Positions 568 through 34,616 of a DNA stretch of 64,000 nt are shown one piece after another. The stretch is from Actinomyces qiguomingii. Lineage in GTDB: Bacteria > Actinomycetota > Actinomycetes > Actinomycetales > Actinomycetaceae. The stretch is from positions 1,736,001 through 1,800,000 of the forward strand of contig NZ_CP025228.1 in assembly GCF_004102025.1 (NCBI RefSeq), read 5' to 3'. Numbering within the stretch: position 1 is the first letter of the stretch; the number at the start of each line of letters is the position of its first letter. The notes under the pieces were generated by a model, which saw nothing but the letters and a program-made list of their open reading frames with translations, ran no database searches and was not told the origin of the DNA. A program made the position numbers and the translations under genes.

Positions 568-789
568 CTACTTGCGGACGGTGATGGTCCAGGAGGCCTC
601 ACCGGTCTTGGCGAACTCTGTGACCGTGTAGCCGTTGTCGGCCGCCCAGGCTGGCAGCGACTGGGTGCCCTGAGTGCAGTCGAAGGCGATGACAAGCTCA
701 TCTCCGGTGGTCAGATCGGCCATCGCCTCCTCAGCCTCCATCACGGGGAACGGGCAGACCAGGCCCTCGGTTTCCAGTACTGTACGCAT
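568..789 (-). CDS. tusA: TusA/SirA-family sulfur carrier-like protein
   Basis: A 73-residue protein of the TusA (SirA/YedF/YeeD) family. Residues 9-15 read GLVCPFP, the family's CPxP motif, with the reactive cysteine at position 12. Members pass a persulfide sulfur between enzymes or work with YeeE/YedE-type carriers. The gene lies 54 bp downstream of a YeeE/TsuA-like carrier on the same strand, the pairing of E. coli yeeE-yeeD (tsuA-tsuB), so a role in handling imported thiosulfate is the best inference. An AAAGGA ribosome binding site precedes the ATG. The symbol marks the family; functionally it may be closer to TsuB/YeeD. Confidence 0.9.
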   Translation of the reverse strand: MRTVLETEGLVCPFPVMEAEEAMADLTTGDELVIAFDCTQGTQSLPAWAADNGYTVTEFAKTGEASWTITVRK

Positions 790-843: not shown

Positions 844-1962
844 TCAGCGGGTCGCCACGACTGCGCTCGCCGCCTTGGAGTTCTCCAGGTGCTCAGTTGG
901 GCGTGATGCCCCTGCTGCGCGGGCGGCACGCCGCTGGTTGCGTGGGCGAATCAGGGTGAAGTAGGCGGTGGCGCCCACGCCCAGCACCTGGAAGACCAGC
1001 GCGGTCCAGCCCTGCCAGGACAGCAGGGAGGTTTGCACCAGGGCGTTGCCGATGGAGCAGCCGCCAGCCCAGGCGGCGCCCACGCCCATGAGTAGCCCGC
1101 CTGCGATTGAGCGCCGAATCACGGTGGCGGAGGGGACGCGCACACGGAACTCGCCCGAGGCGCGCGCGCTGAGATGCGCCCCAATGAGAATGCCGAGCAC
1201 CAGCAGCACACCCCAGTCGAGTCGGCTCTCGTCGCCGGTCACCAACCAGCCGACGAGGTTCGACGAGGGCGTGGTGATTCCCAGTCCGTCGTGGCGCCCG
1301 GAGGCCCAGGACGCTGGCCAGGCGATGATCGCCACCAGACCGACGAGCACGCCCGTGAGCAGCGGATTCCAGGCACGCTCGAACAGCAGGTGGTTCAGGC
1401 CGGTGCGCTGAGGGGCCAGCTGCAAAGTCACCGGCCTGTTGGCGGCAAGACGGCGTTGCCACCGCACGAGAAGGGCGACCCCTGCCGACAGTGCGAGCAC
1501 ACCGACCCAGTCGGGCAGGCTGAAGGCGGCGGGGATCGTGGTCAGCTGCGTGGTCCACAGACCCTTGACCCACGTGGTTACCGGAGCCAGGACACCGGTT
1601 TTTGATGCGGCCGCGGTGCCTGCGTAGGCGATGAGGGCGAACCATGAGCCCACTAGGCCCTCGCCGGCGCGGTAGTACGTGCCGGTGGCGCATCCTCCGG
1701 CCAGCACAATACCGACGCCGAACAGCAGGGAACCGGCCGCGGTGGCCACCACCGAAAGCGTGGGCACCTCAGGGGTGATGGCGCCGGTGGCCGTGAGTAG
1801 GGCGACGCCGACGGCCTGCACGGCGACGGCCAGCAGGAAGGCGGTCATCCACCGCCAGGAGCCGGAGACCCACAGGTCTCGGAAGGCGCCGGTGATGCAG
1901 AAGCGGCCGCGTTGGAGTACAAGTCCGAGTACGCCGCCAACGAGTAGTCCGGTGAATATCAA
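844..1962 (-). CDS. tsuA: YeeE/YedE-family thiosulfate uptake protein (TsuA-like)
   Basis: A polytopic membrane protein of the YeeE/YedE family, which imports thiosulfate. I place the start at TTG 1962-1960, not at an upstream in-frame ATG (2127), because GAAGGA lies just before the TTG and the protein then opens directly with a membrane helix. With this start, three conserved cysteines fall at residues 22 (GRFCITG), 91 (GGCATG) and 302 (GGCSIG). In characterised YeeE the transport cysteines are near 22, 91 and 293, so this numbering supports the start. Length is 372 residues. It is followed by a TusA-like gene and preceded by a poly-cysteine leader ORF, so cysteine-responsive control is likely. 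Confidence 0.88.
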   Translation of the reverse strand: MIFTGLLVGGVLGLVLQRGRFCITGAFRDLWVSGSWRWMTAFLLAVAVQAVGVALLTATGAITPEVPTLSVVATAAGSLLFGVGIVLAGGCATGTYYRAGEGLVGSWFALIAYAGTAAASKTGVLAPVTTWVKGLWTTQLTTIPAAFSLPDWVGVLALSAGVALLVRWQRRLAANRPVTLQLAPQRTGLNHLLFERAWNPLLTGVLVGLVAIIAWPASWASGRHDGLGITTPSSNLVGWLVTGDESRLDWGVLLVLGILIGAHLSARASGEFRVRVPSATVIRRSIAGGLLMGVGAAWAGGCSIGNALVQTSLLSWQGWTALVFQVLGVGATAYFTLIRPRNQRRAARAAGASRPTEHLENSKAASAVVATR

Positions 1963-1989
1963 TGGTGGTCCTTCGGTTGACTTCACCAA

Positions 1990-2004: not shown

Positions 2005-2200
2005 CTGTGTGGTTGAGGACGCGGGTGAGAGACTGCTTCGGCGCGTTGGCGCCGTCGGCCGCAGACACGGCCCACCCGCGACTGGAGGGGGTGGCCATGA
2101 CCTGACCAGGGCTGCCTGTCGGTGCATGCCGTTGCAGCGGCAGGCGGGGGAAGAAGCAGGGAATGAGTAGTCTGACTAATAGTACTCGGGTGCTGCTGCC

Positions 2201-2284
2201 TCACTGAGCCCTGGCCAGGTCGAGCATGCAGCAACACTCTCCGCGGTGTGCGCGGGGGCTGCGGGCTGCGATCTGGGAGCTCAT
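2201..2284 (-). CDS. Poly-cysteine leader peptide upstream of the thiosulfate uptake genes
   Basis: A 27-codon ORF starting ATG at 2284 and ending TGA at 2201-2203. Residues 17-19 are Cys-Cys-Cys, encoded TGT TGC TGC. GGAAG lies 8 nt before the ATG. The ORF is on the same strand as tsuA and ends about 240 nt upstream of it. Short upstream ORFs with polycysteine tracts are known cysteine-responsive attenuators of sulfur operons in mycobacteria. Here the position, strand and downstream function agree with that model. No Ribo-seq or homologue comparison was available, so expression is inferred. Confidence 0.65.
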   Translation of the reverse strand: MSSQIAARSPRAHRGECCCMLDLARAQ

Positions 2285-2381
2285 GAGTGCGTCTTCCGTA
2301 CAGGGTGAGGGTATTGCTAGAGGCCATCGACCGCGGTCGGCGACCATGGCCATGATGCTAGGCGCGGCCGAGTAGTCTGCG

Positions 2382-3344
2382 TCAACGGGATACCACTTCG
2401 TGAGACGGTCCGGTGACCCGTGCCTGTCCTGCTGTTGCGGGCCGGGCGGTGAGCAGCCGCTCTACGCCATCGGCCGGCAGCTCGGGGGTGGTTCCGCCGA
2501 ACAGCGGACAAAGCGCCTGAAATGCGCACCAATCGCACAGGCGGGAGGCGTGGGGAGCAAAGTCGCCGGCGGCGGCGCAGTCCTCCACCTCATCCCAGAT
2601 GCGGGCGAGCCTGGCCTCAGTCGCCTCCAGTTCCGGCAACCGCGGATCGTGGGTGAGGATGCGCCCATCCTTGAGATAGACGATCTGCAGGCGCGCCGGG
2701 GCGCGGCCGCGCAGGCGCCACAGCACCAGTGCGTAGAAGCGCATCTGGAACAGCGCCTCCTCCTGGAAGCGTGGGCCGGGGGAGCGTCCGGTCTTGTAGT
2801 CGACCACGCGCATGGCGCCGTCGGGGGCGATGTCCAACCGATCGATGAAGCCGCGCAGCAACAGCCCGTCGCGCGTGTGCGTCTGGACGAATAGTTCGCG
2901 CTCGGCCGGTTCTAGTCGTCTGGGGTTCTCCAGCCGGAAATAGGCGCTGATCAGTTCCTCGGCCTGCTGAAGCCACGGGCCGACCTGGGTGGGATCATCG
3001 AACAGCTCCATCACCGTCGGGTTGTTGGCCCTATGCGCCTCCCACTGTCCGGGCAGCAGGTCCAGGGCGGCCTGGCTAGTGCGGTCTTGGGCCGGCAGAT
3101 CGTAGAGCCGCTCCAACACCGCATGCACGAGGGTTCCCTTATGGGTGGCCAGGGAGCCCGGCTCCGGTAGGCGGTCAACCGTGCGCAGGCGGAACAGCAG
3201 TGGGCACTGCATGAAGTCCTTCGCCCGCGACGGAGACAGCGCCATACGTCCCGAGCCGCCGCGGCTTGCGCCGCCCCCGGGGCCCGTAGTGCGGGCGGCG
3301 CTGGGAACCGGAGAGGCGGCGGGGCGATTGGGTTGCTCACTCAC
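2382..3344 (-). CDS. RecB-family PD-(D/E)XK nuclease with probable Fe-S cluster
   Basis: A single-domain exonuclease of the RecB/Cas4/AddB C-terminal type, about 320 residues. Visible motifs are ALSPSRAKDFMQCP at the front, RGFIDRLD followed by VVDYKTG (the catalytic Asp and D-Y-K of PD-(D/E)XK nucleases), QMRFYALVL (the QxxxY motif), and the C-terminal CDWCAFQALCP. The N-terminal cysteine plus the three C-terminal cysteines fit a 4Fe-4S cluster as in AddB and Cas4. An in-frame start at 3422 gives a Pro/Gly-rich N-terminus; I prefer GTG 3344 because TAGGTT lies 7 nt upstream, as in other leaderless genes here. It precedes no nuclease partner, so it probably acts alone in DNA repair or processing. 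Confidence 0.82.
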   Translation of the reverse strand: MSEQPNRPAASPVPSAARTTGPGGGASRGGSGRMALSPSRAKDFMQCPLLFRLRTVDRLPEPGSLATHKGTLVHAVLERLYDLPAQDRTSQAALDLLPGQWEAHRANNPTVMELFDDPTQVGPWLQQAEELISAYFRLENPRRLEPAERELFVQTHTRDGLLLRGFIDRLDIAPDGAMRVVDYKTGRSPGPRFQEEALFQMRFYALVLWRLRGRAPARLQIVYLKDGRILTHDPRLPELEATEARLARIWDEVEDCAAAGDFAPHASRLCDWCAFQALCPLFGGTTPELPADGVERLLTARPATAGQARVTGPSHEVVSR

Positions 3345-3471
3345 ATGGGTGAACCTACCGCCGCCCGGTGGTGTGACGGGGGATGGTCCGCCCGGGGATC
3401 CACATCCCGGCGCCGTAGCCATGCACGAACGCTCCCTGTGGACGGCGGTGAGCTGAGTCTATGAAAATCTA

Positions 3472-11553: not shown

Positions 11554-13183
11554 GTCCCAGCCCTTGGGCATGCCGGCGCGCGACTTCACCAGCCATCAGC
11601 TGCGTGAGGCCCGCGCGGAGGCCATCAGCCTGTCCGCGAAGAACGAGCGCCTCGTGACGGCCCTGAACGCCGCCCGCGAGCGCATCGCCGAGCTCGGCGC
11701 CCAGCTCGACGCCGTCACCCGCCCACCCGTCACCCTGGGACTGCTCACCGGCCTACCCGGCTCCGCCGAGGCCGACGTGTCCCTGGGCGGACGTCACCTG
11801 CGGCTGGGGCTGCACCCCGATCTGGATACGGCCGAGCTGGAAGTGGGGCAGCGCGTGGCCGTCAACGACCAGATGCTTGTGGTTGACGCCCTGCCCGCAC
11901 CCGACACCGGGGAGGCGGTCACCCTGGATGAGGTGCTGGCCGACGTCGACGACGCCGCGACCGCTGGCGAGCGCACGGCGGTGTCCGCGGCCCGCGCCCT
12001 GGTCACCACCGGCTCTGGCGCCACCCGCGTGGTGCGGCTGGCCGGGCACCTCGACGCCGACACGCTGCGGCCCGGCGACACACTCGCCACCGACCTGCGC
12101 GCCGACCTGGTAACCGCCCGCATCGCCCGCACCAGCGTCCAGCAGCTGGTGGTCGCCGAGACCCCGGACGTGTCCTGGGACGACATCGGCGGCCTGGGCC
12201 CGCAGATTCAGCAGATCCGTGACTCCCTCGAACTGCCCTTCGCCCACCCCGACCTGTTCCGCGCCTACGGGCTGCAGGCCCCCAAGGGCATGCTGCTGTA
12301 CGGCCCGCCCGGCTGCGGCAAGACCCTGATCGCCAAGGCGGTCGCCACCTCCCTGGCCCGCTCCACGGGCGCCGGCGTCCAGGACGCCGCCTTCCTGAAT
12401 ATCAAGGGCCCGGAACTGCTTAGTAAGTTCGTCGGCGAGACGGAGCGGCAGATACGCGCCATCTTTGACCAGGCCCGCAAGGTCGCTGCCGAGGACCGGC
12501 CGGTGGTGATCTTCTTCGACGAGATGGAGGCCCTGTTCCGCACCCGCGGCAGCGGCGTCTCCTCCGACGTGGAGACCATGATCGTGCCGCAGGTCCTCAC
12601 CGAGATCGACGGTGTGGAGTCGCTGAACAACGTGGTCATCATCGGCGCCTCCAACCGGGAGGACATGATCGACCCGGCGATCCTGCGGCCCGGCCGTTTC
12701 GACGTGAAGATCCGCATCGACCGCCCCGACGCCGCCGGTGCGCAGGAGATCCTCGCCAAGCACCTGCGTGCCGACCTACCCCTGGACCCGGCGGCGCTGG
12801 CCGCGGTCGGAGGCGACCGGGAGGCCGCTGCCGCCGCCATGCGCCGGGCCGTGGTCGCCGACCTTTACGCCCGTGACCCGGCCAACGCGGTACTGGAGAT
12901 CATGTACGCCTCCGGGCGGCGCGAGACCCTGTACCTGGCCGACTTCGTCTCCGGCGCCATGCTCGCCGCCATCGTCGCCCGCGCCAAGACCTCCGCCATT
13001 AAGGATGAGCTGGCCGGCGGGGACGGCGGGTTGTCCACTGAGCGGCTGCGCGCGGCGGTCGCCGTTGAGGCCCGGCAGAATGAGGAGATCACCGCCGCCG
13101 CGGCCCCGGAGTCCGCGGGCCGCTTCATAGGCCACAGCAGCGGGCCCATCCACGCGGTACGCCGTATTCAGGAGGGGGACTGA
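11546..13183 (+). CDS. mpa: Proteasome-associated ATPase ARC/Mpa
   Basis: A 545-residue AAA ATPase that recruits and unfolds pupylated proteins. Layout: N-terminal coiled coil (about residues 15-60) that binds Pup, two OB-fold segments, then the AAA module with Walker A GPPGCGKT (about 252-259), Walker B VIFFDEME and sensor region IIGASNREDMIDPAILRPGRFD. The start is ATG 11546, overlapping trmI. The C-terminus ends RRIQEGD. It lacks the terminal Gln-Tyr-Leu that docks Mycobacterium Mpa into the 20S core, which agrees with the absence of 20S genes in this cluster. Confidence 0.95.
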   Translation: MSESQPLGMPARDFTSHQLREARAEAISLSAKNERLVTALNAARERIAELGAQLDAVTRPPVTLGLLTGLPGSAEADVSLGGRHLRLGLHPDLDTAELEVGQRVAVNDQMLVVDALPAPDTGEAVTLDEVLADVDDAATAGERTAVSAARALVTTGSGATRVVRLAGHLDADTLRPGDTLATDLRADLVTARIARTSVQQLVVAETPDVSWDDIGGLGPQIQQIRDSLELPFAHPDLFRAYGLQAPKGMLLYGPPGCGKTLIAKAVATSLARSTGAGVQDAAFLNIKGPELLSKFVGETERQIRAIFDQARKVAAEDRPVVIFFDEMEALFRTRGSGVSSDVETMIVPQVLTEIDGVESLNNVVIIGASNREDMIDPAILRPGRFDVKIRIDRPDAAGAQEILAKHLRADLPLDPAALAAVGGDREAAAAAMRRAVVADLYARDPANAVLEIMYASGRRETLYLADFVSGAMLAAIVARAKTSAIKDELAGGDGGLSTERLRAAVAVEARQNEEITAAAAPESAGRFIGHSSGPIHAVRRIQEGD

Positions 13184-13189
13184 GCACAT

Positions 13190-14905
13190 ATGAATACAAC
13201 AGGCAGCACTGATCGCACTGACTTCGGGCCGGTGCACCGTCCCGTGGGCCTGGAGACGGAGTTTGGAGTAATCGAGCCGGGCAACCCCCGCGCCAACTCG
13301 GTGGTAATGGCCAGCCGGATCGTGGCCGCCTACGGCGGCGTCTCGCGTCCCGACACCGGTGCGCGTGAGGCCGTCCACTGGGACTATGAGGGGGAGGATC
13401 CGCTCGCCGACCTGCGCGGGGGCCGCCTGGAGCGTGCCACCGCCCACCCCAGTCAGCTCACCGATGACCCGGACCGCCCCGCCCCCTCTGGCGACCTCCC
13501 CCCGGCCCCGTGGGGCACGCGCCCGCGCCCTGGCGCTGCCGAGGCTGCCCTGCCGCAGGCCACCACCGCGGTGCTCGCCAACGGTGCTCGTCTGTACGTG
13601 GACCATGCCCACCCCGAGTACTCCTCCCCGGAGGTGCTCACCCCCCGCGATGCGCTGGTGTGGGACCGCGCCGGGGAGGTGATCGCCCGCCGCGCCATGG
13701 CTGCCCTGGACCCGCGCGACGGCAAGGTCGTGCTGTACAAGAACAACGTTGACGGCAAGGGTGCCGCCTACGGCTCGCACGAGAATTACCTGGTGCGCCG
13801 TGACCTGCCCTTCGACACGCTGGCCGCTGCCCTGATCCCCTTCCTTGTTACCCGGCCCGTATTCGCCGGTGCCGGCCGGATCGGTATTGGGCAGCGCAGC
13901 GAGACGCCCGGCTTCCAGATCAGCCAACGCGCCGACTATGTGGGCACCGACATTGCCCTGCAAACCACCTTCAACCGGCCCATCGTCAACACCCGCGACG
14001 AGCCGCACGCCGACGCCGTCCGCTTCCGCCGCCTGCACATCATCAACGGTGACGCCAACCGCTTCGACGTGCCCACCTATCTGAAGGTCGCCACCACCGA
14101 CCTGCTGCTGTGGTACCTGGAGCGCGCCCACGATCGCGGTCAGGGGCTGGGGGTGCTGGCCGACTTGCGTATCACCGCCGACCCGGTGGAGGAGCACTGG
14201 GCGCTGTCCCACGATCCGACGCTCACCTATGCGCTGGCCACCGCCCGCGGCCCGCTGACCGCACTGGAGATCCAGCGCGCCCACCTCGATGCGATTACTG
14301 CCGCACTGGGCGAGGACTACGGCGGCATCGACGCCGAACACGTTGGCACAGAAACCGCCCAGGCACTCGGCCTTTGGGGGCAGACCCTGGACGCGCTCGC
14401 CGCTTACGCCGCCTCCCTGGGCACCCCCGAGCAGGGCGCGGCCACCGATCGTGCCGCCGAGCTGGTCGAATGGGTTGCCAAACTGCAACTGTGCGAGGGG
14501 CTGCGTGCGCGCTCCGGAACCGGCTGGGACGACCCGCGCCTGGCCGCCGCCGACATCCAGTGGGCCGACCTGCGCGCCGGCTGCGGCCTGGCCGAAAGGC
14601 TCATTGCCGCTGGCCGCACCCGCCGCCTGGTCACCGAGGCCGAGGCGGAAGCCGCAGCTGACCGGCCGCCCGCAGGCACGCGCGCCGCAGTCCGCGGCGC
14701 GGCGGTAGCCAACCACGGGGCCGTCGTCGCCGCCTCCTGGACCAGCCTGGTGCTGGACGTGCCCGGGCGAGCCGAGCTGCTGCGCCTGCCACTACCCGAC
14801 GCCGTGGCCGTCTCGGACGCCGAGTCGGCACGTATCCTGGGCGCCGTCCAAGCCGCCGTCACCCCCGCAGAGCCGGAAGAATCAGAAAGTCAATCACGCG
14901 CATGA
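13190..14905 (+). CDS. dop: Pup deamidase/depupylase Dop
   Basis: A 571-residue member of the carboxylate-amine ligase fold that deamidates the C-terminal Gln of Pup and removes Pup from proteins. The nucleotide-binding opening VGLETEFGVIEPG and the catalytic-Asp strand ARLYVDHAHPEYSSPE are clear. The insertion GGRLERATAHPSQLTDDP lies in the Dop-specific loop region that separates Dop from PafA. It is located 6 nt after mpa and overlaps pup by 4 nt (ATGA). Confidence 0.95.
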   Translation: MNTTGSTDRTDFGPVHRPVGLETEFGVIEPGNPRANSVVMASRIVAAYGGVSRPDTGAREAVHWDYEGEDPLADLRGGRLERATAHPSQLTDDPDRPAPSGDLPPAPWGTRPRPGAAEAALPQATTAVLANGARLYVDHAHPEYSSPEVLTPRDALVWDRAGEVIARRAMAALDPRDGKVVLYKNNVDGKGAAYGSHENYLVRRDLPFDTLAAALIPFLVTRPVFAGAGRIGIGQRSETPGFQISQRADYVGTDIALQTTFNRPIVNTRDEPHADAVRFRRLHIINGDANRFDVPTYLKVATTDLLLWYLERAHDRGQGLGVLADLRITADPVEEHWALSHDPTLTYALATARGPLTALEIQRAHLDAITAALGEDYGGIDAEHVGTETAQALGLWGQTLDALAAYAASLGTPEQGAATDRAAELVEWVAKLQLCEGLRARSGTGWDDPRLAAADIQWADLRAGCGLAERLIAAGRTRRLVTEAEAEAAADRPPAGTRAAVRGAAVANHGAVVAASWTSLVLDVPGRAELLRLPLPDAVAVSDAESARILGAVQAAVTPAEPEESESQSRA

Positions 14906-15084
14906 GCCTGAACGAGCAGATCCAGCCCAACCCCGAGCCCGCCGCCCCCAACCCGGAACCGGCCGCCGGCTCCGGGCAGATGCAGGCCGCGGCAGTCGAC
15001 GACATCCTTGATGAAATCGACACCGTCCTGGAGACCAATGCTGCCGCCTTCGTCCAGGGCTTCGTCCAGAAGGGCGGGCAGTGA
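14902..15084 (+). CDS. pup: Prokaryotic ubiquitin-like protein Pup
   Basis: A 60-residue, largely disordered tag ending Lys-Gly-Gly-Gln. Dop must convert the terminal Gln to Glu before PafA can attach it to lysines. The conserved helix region is DDILDEIDTVLETNAAAFV, which contacts the Mpa coiled coil. The N-terminal part contains a direct repeat, PNPEPAA twice, and is Pro/Ala-rich with no charged Gly/Asp tract. The only lysine is in the C-terminal QKGGQ. It overlaps dop upstream and pafA downstream by 4 nt each. Confidence 0.97.
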   Translation: MSLNEQIQPNPEPAAPNPEPAAGSGQMQAAAVDDILDEIDTVLETNAAAFVQGFVQKGGQ

Positions 15085-16547
15085 CGGTGACGGCGCCCGC
15101 GGACGCCCCCCGCACTCGGCGCGCGCCCGCCCGTCGGATCTTCGGCGTCGAAACCGAGTACGGCATCACCTGTGCCTCCACGGTTGGCGGAACCCCGCCG
15201 CTGGACGCCGACCACGCCGCCCGTGAACTATTCGCCCCCCTGATCGACCGGGGCCGCTCCTCCAACGTGTTCACCCGTGGCGGCGCGCGCCTGTACCTGG
15301 ATGTGGGCTCCCACCCCGAGTTCGCCACCGCCGAATGCGATAACCTCATCGACCTGCTGGCCCAGGACCGGGCAGGCGAACTGACCATGGCCGACCTGGC
15401 CGCACAGGCCAACGCTCGCCTGGCTGCGCAGGAGGTGCCCGGCCGCATCCACCTGCTGAAGAACAACCTTGACGCCCAGGGCACTGGCTTCGGCTGTCAC
15501 GAGAACTACCTGGTGCGCCGCCGCGGGGACTTCTGGAATGACGCCCGCACCCTGGTGCCCCACCTGGTTACTCGACAGATCCTGGTCGGCGCCGGGCACA
15601 TCCTCACCGACCCAACAGGCTCGCGCCCCGCCCGCTACGTCTTCTCCCAGCGCGCCGACCAGATGGAGGACGCCGTCTCCTCGGCCACCACCCGCGCCCG
15701 GCCCCTGATAAACACCCGCGACGAGCCGCACGCCGACGCCGAGAAGTACCGGCGCATGCATGTGATCGTCGGGGACTCCAACATCGCCCAGGGCTCCACC
15801 CTGCTCAAGGTCGGCGCCATGGACCTGCTGCTGGACTACCTGGAGGCCGGCGGCGACCTGTCCGACCTGCGCCTGGCCGATCCCATGCGTGCCATCCGCG
15901 ACACCTGCCACGACCTGAGCGGCACCGTGCTGCTCGAGCTGGCGGACGGACGCACCATCACCCCCGTAGAGCTGCAGACTGAACACCTGGTGCGCGTGCG
16001 CGCACACGCCGACGCCGAGCTCGACCTGACCGACGCACACCGGTGTGTGCTGGACCTGTGGGAGCGCGGCCTGGAAGCGGTGCGCACGGGTAATCCCACG
16101 CTGGTGGCCACAGAACTGGACTGGGCGGCCAAGCAGCAGCTGTTGACCCGCTACGCGCAGCGTGCCGACACCGCCCTGGACGACCCGCGCGTGGCCCGCC
16201 TGGCCCTGGCCTACCATGACGTCGACCCCAGCGACGGGCTGCGACCCCGGCTGGAGGCGGCCGGGTTGTTGACCCGCATCGTTGCTGACGACGCCTGCCG
16301 TGCCGCCGTCGACACGCCCCCGGCCACCACCCGCGCCCACCTGCGCGGTGCCGCCATCGCCCGCGCCGAGGACCTGCGCCGGGACCTGTCCGTAGACTGG
16401 GTCAACCTCAAGTTGGACGACGGCCATTCCCGCTCGGTGGCTCTGCGTGACCCCTTTGCCGCCGTTGATACGCGTGTGGACGCACTGCTGGCCGCCATAG
16501 ATACGCCTGAACCGCCTCGCTCTGGCATACTCGTGACCGGCCCATGA
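15081..16547 (+). CDS. pafA: Pup--protein ligase PafA
   Basis: A 488-residue ligase that uses ATP to join the C-terminal Glu of Pup to substrate lysines. IFGVETEYGITCAS is the N-terminal nucleotide-binding strand, and ARLYLDVGSHPEFATAECD carries the catalytic Asp. LLKNNLDAQGTGFGCHENYL matches the family. The GTG start at 15081 overlaps the pup stop. In organisms with a 20S core, prcB and prcA usually sit between pup and pafA; here no space exists for them. Confidence 0.95.
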   Translation: MTVTAPADAPRTRRAPARRIFGVETEYGITCASTVGGTPPLDADHAARELFAPLIDRGRSSNVFTRGGARLYLDVGSHPEFATAECDNLIDLLAQDRAGELTMADLAAQANARLAAQEVPGRIHLLKNNLDAQGTGFGCHENYLVRRRGDFWNDARTLVPHLVTRQILVGAGHILTDPTGSRPARYVFSQRADQMEDAVSSATTRARPLINTRDEPHADAEKYRRMHVIVGDSNIAQGSTLLKVGAMDLLLDYLEAGGDLSDLRLADPMRAIRDTCHDLSGTVLLELADGRTITPVELQTEHLVRVRAHADAELDLTDAHRCVLDLWERGLEAVRTGNPTLVATELDWAAKQQLLTRYAQRADTALDDPRVARLALAYHDVDPSDGLRPRLEAAGLLTRIVADDACRAAVDTPPATTRAHLRGAAIARAEDLRRDLSVDWVNLKLDDGHSRSVALRDPFAAVDTRVDALLAAIDTPEPPRSGILVTGP

Positions 16548-34504: not shown

Positions 34505-34557
34505 TCCGCGTGGATGCCAGAGGCTCGGCCCGCGGGAAGCTGCTAGCCTAGCCCCAC

Positions 34558-34601
34558 CCGGGACGACCCGGAGTCCACGGATCACACTTGGGGACGGCCC
34601 C
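34558..34601 (+). promoter_or_regulatory. Guanidine-II (mini-ykkC) riboswitch
   Basis: Two short hairpins with the diagnostic ACGR tetraloops. Hairpin 1 is CCGGG-ACGA-CCCGG (34558-34571); hairpin 2 is GGGG-ACGG-CCCC (34590-34601). They are joined by an 18-nt linker. GGAAGG (34604-34609), the ribosome site of the exporter gene, follows hairpin 2 at once. This fits the known architecture in which guanidinium joins the two loops and exposes the ribosome site. Confidence 0.88.
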
Positions 34602-34616
34602 GCGGAAGGTGCGTGC

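Follow-up and report, generated by a model that had tools for sequence, protein, structure and literature searches.

A short open reading frame (ORF) upstream of the genes tsuA and tsuB in Actinomyces qiguomingii is probably the leader of a ribosome-mediated attenuator of thiosulfate uptake, at which ribosomes would stall for want of cysteine. The ORF occupies positions 2201..2284 (minus strand) of the 64,000-nucleotide stretch of DNA that was analyzed, hereafter the window. Its counterparts are conserved in front of tsuA across the genus, keep a cysteine codon within a run of cysteine and methionine codons, and contribute one arm of a predicted long-range RNA helix; a second leader rich in both residues precedes cysK. 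More tentatively, we propose a new family of attenuators led by a Shine-Dalgarno sequence (SD), in which mixed Cys/Met tracts would co-ordinate tsuA and cysK in Actinomyces and tracts of other sequence would serve elsewhere in actinobacteria, a proposal that we rate slightly below an even prospect.

The thiosulfate uptake genes and the leader ORF

The product of tsuA (844..1962, minus strand, with a TTG start at 1962) is a YeeE-type thiosulfate transporter according to NCBIfam, Pfam and a solved homologue, and that of tsuB (568..789, minus strand), the next gene, is a YeeD/TusA-like sulfurtransferase according to NCBIfam and Pfam. TsuA scores 352 bits against the NCBIfam TsuA model, which is below the cut-off of 645, 314 bits against Pfam Sulf_transp, and 144 bits against the solved TsuA-TsuB of Spirochaeta; TsuB scores 105 bits against YeeD/TsuB, again below the cut-off (147.5), and 59 bits against Pfam TusA. 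The assignment to the TsuA/YeeE class is based on this similarity, including that to the solved TsuA, and on the adjoining TsuB-like gene, with both proteins under the curated NCBIfam cut-offs. An SD, GAAGGA (1969..1974, minus strand), precedes tsuA, and AAGGA-type sites are found in relatives. The function of TsuA and TsuB is addressed in the available part of PMC11073785; among the literature matches listed, judged by titles and abstract openings, none dealt with their regulation in Gram-positive bacteria.

The leader ORF consists of 27 codons and a TGA stop (MSSQIAARSPRAHRGECCCMLDLARAQ), and its stop lies 238 nt from the TTG start of tsuA, on the same strand. Its ATG, at 2284, is preceded at a distance of 7 nt by the SD GGAAGA (2292..2297, minus strand), and sites of the GGAGAA/GGAAGA type occur in relatives. 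Codons 17 to 20, TGT TGC TGC ATG (2225..2236, minus strand), form a run of sulfur amino-acid codons, Cys17-Cys18-Cys19-Met20. The architecture is that described in an earlier note on this DNA, namely, a 27-codon ORF with a ribosome site and cysteines at residues 17-19, located about 240 nt upstream of YeeE/TsuA-like and TusA-like genes of the same strand.

A promoter-like sequence, TTGACG (2385-2380) and TAGCAT (2360-2355) with a 19 nt spacing, was read by eye at 2355..2385 (minus strand), that is, 71-101 nt 5' of the leader ORF. Its -35 hexamer overlaps the stop codon of the upstream gene, and similar TTGnnn and TAnnnT hexamers occupy the same place in many, not all, of the aligned relatives; a scan for strict consensus promoters returned 0. 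Judging from this sequence, the leader mRNA would start some 60-70 nt upstream of the ORF, and because an SD and a promoter-like sequence are both present, the ORF is probably not leaderless. An alternative in-frame ATG at 2353 would give an ORF of 50 aa, and in two relatives (L004 and L006) no start of the frame is listed ahead of the counterpart of the ATG at 2284. The gene directly upstream (2382-3422, same strand) encodes a RecB-family PD-(D/E)XK nuclease with weak similarity to Cas4, below the cut-offs.

Rfam searches detected no element at gathering score in the leader region; the sole weak match there, with an E value of 4.8 and on the opposite strand, is at chance level and was rejected. 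Elsewhere in the window, a Guanidine-II riboswitch (34557-34602, plus strand, 36 bits in Rfam) is followed by an ORF running to 34934, the later part of which resembles, by eye, a small multidrug-resistance-type membrane protein, an expected pairing.

The window contains 157 SD-preceded ORFs of 12-45 aa, with nested starts counted. Among these, the leader is the only one with three consecutive cysteine codons, for which 20 shuffles give a mean of 0.30, and the only one with four consecutive Cys/Met codons (shuffle mean 0.00); runs of three Cys/Met codons including a cysteine occur in 3 of the 157. Across the 4.0-Mb genome, the pattern TGYTGYTGY is found 631 times, against 773 for the reversed pattern. 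Because the cysteine triplet is close to its chance frequency in the shuffles and its codon pattern is not enriched in the genome, the triplet by itself is weak evidence, and the decisive evidence is conservation.

Conservation of the leader in Actinomyces

Matches to tsuA were detected in 30 of the 49 Actinomyces genomes, and the leader ORF could be read in 27 of 28 scanned loci (L029 and L030 excluded). At the 28th locus, L009, the cysteine codons are the same and the frame runs on because of a 1-nt deletion in the leader tail. A profile built from 17 leader peptides (A1) identified, among the matches listed, 31 of the 49 genomes at E<1e-8, at one place per genome and with no second copy in any of them, and none of 164 genomes from the other 35 genera of the family at E<=0.001. 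Twenty-nine of the 31 places are just upstream of a tsuA match. In G022 the leader is kept in front of a tsuA deletion remnant, with its Cys-Met now Cys-Ile, and in G011, the remaining place, it lies at a contig end. G038 is the only genome of the genus that has a tsuA match (partial, 53%, near a contig end) and no leader. Conservation of the leader is, in this genus, tied to tsuA. At the G022 locus (L062, 3000-3900), which holds the tsuA remnant, the frame of tsuB also appears to be shifted.

Exactly 27 codons are present in 24 leaders, all of which retain the ATG start, Cys19, Leu23 and the TGA stop. The codon for Cys19 is TGT in 18 and TGC in 6 of these, changes that are synonymous only. 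Met20 is found in 22 of the 24, with Thr in L011 and L020, and position 18 is more variable (Met in 13, Cys in 9, Val in 1 and Leu in 1). Three consecutive cysteines occur in 6 of the 27 loci scanned, all from the window's own clade, and in L109 of the same clade as well; the other leaders contain from one cysteine codon (L008, L027) to four (L011), mostly next to methionine, for example, in GMCM, AACCM and GMCCM. Because the triplet is confined to one clade and Cys19 alone is invariant, the conserved feature is a cysteine codon inside a run of Cys/Met codons, not poly-cysteine. The expectation in the earlier note that alignment of relatives would reveal a conserved short ORF keeping its cysteine tract was thus borne out for the ORF (29 of 31 before tsuA) and failed for the tract.

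Differences among the leaders are distributed over the three codon positions in proportions of.33/.38/.30, with no third-position signature for the whole peptide, so that ordinary protein selection does not act on the peptide as a whole. Within the ORF, pairwise differences total 7308, about half of the 13146-15299 in the neighboring 84-nt blocks, which were compared ungapped, so that their counts are inflated. The lack of a third-position signal, together with the near-chance frequency of the triplet, would be compatible with a chance ORF, the conserved element being only RNA structure or promoter sequence. We regard such an explanation as highly improbable, given that the SD, the start, the 27-codon length, the stop and Cys19 are all kept, with only synonymous variation at Cys19, and that other genera carry different cysteine leaders in front of tsuA. 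The locus presents one of the features expected of ribosome-mediated amino-acid attenuators, namely, a conserved short ORF with cognate codons in front of a gene for amino-acid supply.

Leaders upstream of tsuA in other genera

Outside Actinomyces, tsuA matches were found in 19 further genomes of the Actinomycetaceae, and the upstream regions were inspected in 18 of these (all except G139), two of which (L083, L084) belong to distant paralogues with 33% identity. Among the 16 close homologues, 11, from six genera, are preceded by a different SD-led leader ORF that contains cysteine and is mostly Met-rich too, for example, MVSFLRIHAAAAAEQAACMCCSICCRMI and MTFLHMHRTYATNHSAHAMCCSMRSRMC; these leaders were picked by eye, for an SD and cysteine, from the candidates listed. 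At the other five close loci (L078-L082), no cysteine leader was seen by eye. Two of these 11 leaders, L070 and L072, both from a single genus, match the NCBIfam family NF042934 above its cut-off, with 32.9 and 31.5 versus 27 bits. Leaders of that type were found in 0 of the 49 Actinomyces genomes, a count that says nothing in itself, as the control genomes were equally silent, and NCBIfam gave no match for the window's leader, one clade-B tsuA leader or three cysK leaders.

Among 394 genomes drawn evenly from the class, a search for tsuA at E<=1e-60 yielded four carriers besides our own, two of them with such a leader ORF; at L113 and L116, no cysteine leader was judged clear, nor was one at 15 named tsuA loci from Corynebacterium, Kocuria and others. 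The leader at L114 is MFRLHLFSRRVIDLMYVCTCGCCS, with a weak match to Ms4527A (17.5 bits, cut-off 45), and that at L115 ends in MMMCSMCRQCC. The latter, from another family of the class, is started by GTG, extends from about -255 to -162 before tsuA and ends in SSTMMMCSMCRQCC, an extreme Met/Cys tract.

Methionine makes up 28 of the 156 residues in the last 12 positions of the 13 tsuA leaders from outside the genus. With two tails from the genus added, cysteine accounts for 41 and methionine for 31 of 179 residues, compared with 4 methionines among 192 residues in cysteine-selected short ORFs of the window. The binomial probability of 4e-15 for this methionine enrichment overstates the case because several tails come from close relatives and were selected by eye.

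A second leader upstream of cysK

In the genome of A. qiguomingii itself, cysK is preceded by a Met/Cys-rich leader (L124 / L129), MTVNGVMRVMFSCCCRCR followed by a stop codon, with the SD GAGGAGGA, at about 1123902-1123958 of G000:C1 (minus strand, outside the window). CysK matches are present in 48 of the 49 genomes of the genus, and 28 of the 30 cysK loci examined have a leader by a scan for an SD plus CC or C.C near the end; L155 and L156 show none by the same scan. Together, the 28 leaders comprise 599 residues, of which 124 are cysteines and 97 are non-start methionines. These leaders were found via their cysteine codons, and the observation of their methionine content is therefore independent. 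Alignment of 16 cysK leaders shows Met7, Met10, Cys15 and Cys17 to be invariant. A profile of these leaders gave 30 matches at E<=0.02, in 29 genomes; 29 of the matches are located 150-400 nt upstream of cysK, 15 of these 29 being in genomes outside the profile set, and the remaining match (G027:C27, E 0.003) is at another place. No match to the profile was obtained in twenty genomes, and several of them have longer leaders by the SD/Cys scan. Directly 3' of the cysK leader stop, RNAalifold predicts a strong hairpin in both clades (7 and 12 loci). Other candidate sulfur genes of this genome (PF01053 at L117/L118, PF00291 at L123/L125/L126 and PF03180 at L128) have no clear leader. A GTG-started ORF lacking an SD, MCCLSHLMLR, is found in front of L117.

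Joint sensing of cysteine and methionine is a likely reading of these tracts, to which we assign not quite an even chance. The alternative is a sensor of cysteine only, the methionine codons being incidental or serving RNA structure, internal starts or re-initiation. It agrees with the characterization of actinobacterial leaders by cysteine runs in the available part of PMC1262725, and with the status of Cys19 as the sole invariant sulfur codon of the tsuA leaders besides the start, Met20 giving way to Thr in L011 and L020. The enrichment of methionine in leaders before tsuA outside the genus and likewise in the cysteine-selected cysK leaders, and the invariance of Met7 and Met10 in the latter, speak against it. 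A cysteine-only sensor nonetheless has appreciable plausibility, at a level that we place distinctly below even.

Peptides rich in cysteine and methionine often bind copper, and the ORFs could, in principle, encode a small peptide that binds metal (for example, copper) or senses redox state, whether as a protein or through sensing by the nascent chain. The chances of this appear very slim: the peptide sequence varies among genera as the Cys/Met codons persist, third-position conservation is absent, and both downstream genes serve sulfur supply.

RNA structure and a proposed mechanism

In RNAalifold predictions for four clades (6, 10, 4 and 2 loci), the tail of the leader pairs with a downstream segment, D1. 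In the window, the 5' arm of this long-range helix, GACCTGGCCAGGGCT, spans codons 22-26 (2207..2221, minus strand), and the 3' arm, D1, is AGCCCTGGTCAGGTC (2099..2113, minus strand), both assigned by RNA folding and covariation; the D1 motif starts 68-112 nt after the leader stop. D1 was located via a CAGG-type motif, so that simple shuffles are biased. When the long duplex was shuffled species by species, the z-scores were mostly weak, and swap and slide tests across species took the place of these shuffles. For 10 representatives, the duplex energy sum is -282.8 versus a mean of -243.4 upon exchange of D1 (sd 12.0, p=0.0016); exchange of the arm among nine representatives gives p=0.011 on pairs. 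Of the 104 cells at positions +5 to +8, which lie outside the motif, 86 hold standard pairs, compared with 13-54 when slid by 1-3 bases. Pairs +5 and +6 are kept in 26 of 26 loci, with compensatory C-G/T-A changes, and pair +7 in 12 of 26 only. For L019 and L026, the native arm gives no improvement over the swap mean, all 25 swaps being equal or better in L026, and L024 is without the D1 motif. Overall, the predicted helix is conserved, covaries and sits in a place that fits an attenuator.

We infer that the leader is translated from its own SD and that scarcity of cysteinyl-tRNA, and probably of methionyl-tRNA too, would stall the ribosome at codons 17-20. With Cys19 in the A site, the ribosome would reach to about codon 22, and codons 23-27 would be available for pairing with the segment located about 87 nt after the stop. 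Under good supply, the ribosome would run on to the stop and cover the tail arm. The helix would mark starvation and should, therefore, be the ON state; formed upon stalling, it would favor expression, most simply by keeping Rho from terminating transcription within the 238-nt spacer, which is rich in C; the output could be transcriptional, through Rho, or else translational. Intrinsic terminators were detected neither in the leader region nor after the 13 leaders from outside the genus. C exceeds G in 27 of 27 spacers examined, the C excess in our own case being reached by 7% of windows in the 64 kb, and such C-rich spacers are suggestive of, and compatible with, the action of Rho.

Ribosome masking was modeled by folding at 26 loci, with the ribosome placed either at Cys19 or at the stop codon. 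In 13 of the 26, formation of the helix clearly gains from the placement at Cys19, its absence with the ribosome at the stop being imposed by the masking itself. Accessibility of the tsuA SD hardly changes between the two states (mean -0.006; up in 5 and down in 7 of the 26 loci), and the leader stop is 206-380 nt away from tsuA (27 loci). Both observations argue against translational attenuation of the Mycobacterium type, in which the stalled ribosome would open a structure hiding the ribosome-binding site of tsuA. That mechanism has a precedent in the poly-cysteine leaderless short ORFs (sORFs) of M. smegmatis, which have the same kind of codon and class of downstream gene, but we consider it unlikely here. 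Like the cysteine-only sensor, it is a variant of the main reading, and the likelihoods given for the three are therefore not mutually exclusive. The extension of the mycobacterial mechanism suggested in the earlier note accordingly holds in part: a conserved cysteine leader does precede tsuA, but it comes with an SD and a promoter-like sequence, and the folding model gives no sign that the ribosome controls access to the tsuA SD.

Comparison with known systems

The poly-cysteine leaderless sORFs of M. smegmatis, the subject of work by Canestrari in 2020, reportedly mediate attenuation. Cysteine-rich leaderless upstream ORFs in mycobacteria also figure in the available part of Shell 2015 (PMC4633059), attenuation by poly-cysteine sORFs is summarized in that of PMC9031893, and the accessible portions of PMC9094748 and PMC13236596 likewise comment on the 2020 study. 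As far as these partial sources go, the mycobacterial sORFs, located before cysA2, nirA and others, resemble the Actinomyces leader in having cysteine codons near the end of a short ORF, sulfur genes downstream and a proposed pausing at cysteine codons. Unlike these leaderless sORFs, the Actinomyces ORF is preceded by an SD and, probably, by a 5' leader, as far as sequence can tell. It further differs in its peptide family, its mixed Cys/Met codons, its thiosulfate-importer target and the absence of predicted SD gating. A conserved run of cysteine codons, as expected of that class, is not found in Actinomyces, where the neighbors of the invariant codon are Cys or Met. Cysteine-rich leader families are represented in NCBIfam by NF042934 (cis_reg_atten), NF042936 (Ms4527A) and NF042933 (Ms5788A), none of which the window's leader matches.

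The available part of Seliverstov 2005 (PMC1262725) describes candidate cysteine leaders for cbs of B. longum and for cys operons in Mycobacterium and P. acnes. As in our case, they carry cysteine runs near the stop and lack intrinsic terminators, and Rho was suggested; that part of the article includes no tsuA, no Actinomyces, no methionine codons and no conserved terminator-like hairpin, whereas a conserved helix is predicted here. The upstream ORF uORFC-8-2, found before cysS in Rhodobacterales (PMC8632094, available part), shares tandem cysteine codons and an overlap of the ORF with RNA stems, but belongs to Alphaproteobacteria, precedes a tRNA synthetase gene and is accompanied by an intrinsic terminator.

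If the proposed mechanism is correct, joint reading of cysteine and methionine codons would make the leader a sensor of the total supply of sulfur amino acids rather than of a single one, and cysteine attenuation in Actinobacteria would be possible without leaderless mRNA. Oral and rumen bacteria are among the members of the genus, whose tsuA and cysK leaders offer two readily testable reporters. Among the literature matches listed, judged by titles and abstract openings and with thin coverage of subscription journals, none dealt with such leaders for Actinomyces, for tsuA or for cysK. Because cysteine leaders have been described elsewhere and none such is among these matches, the kind of element is known, and the Actinomyces leader is a distinct variant of it, which is SD-led, has its own peptide family, combines cysteine with methionine codons, serves new targets and includes a predicted, covarying long-range helix.
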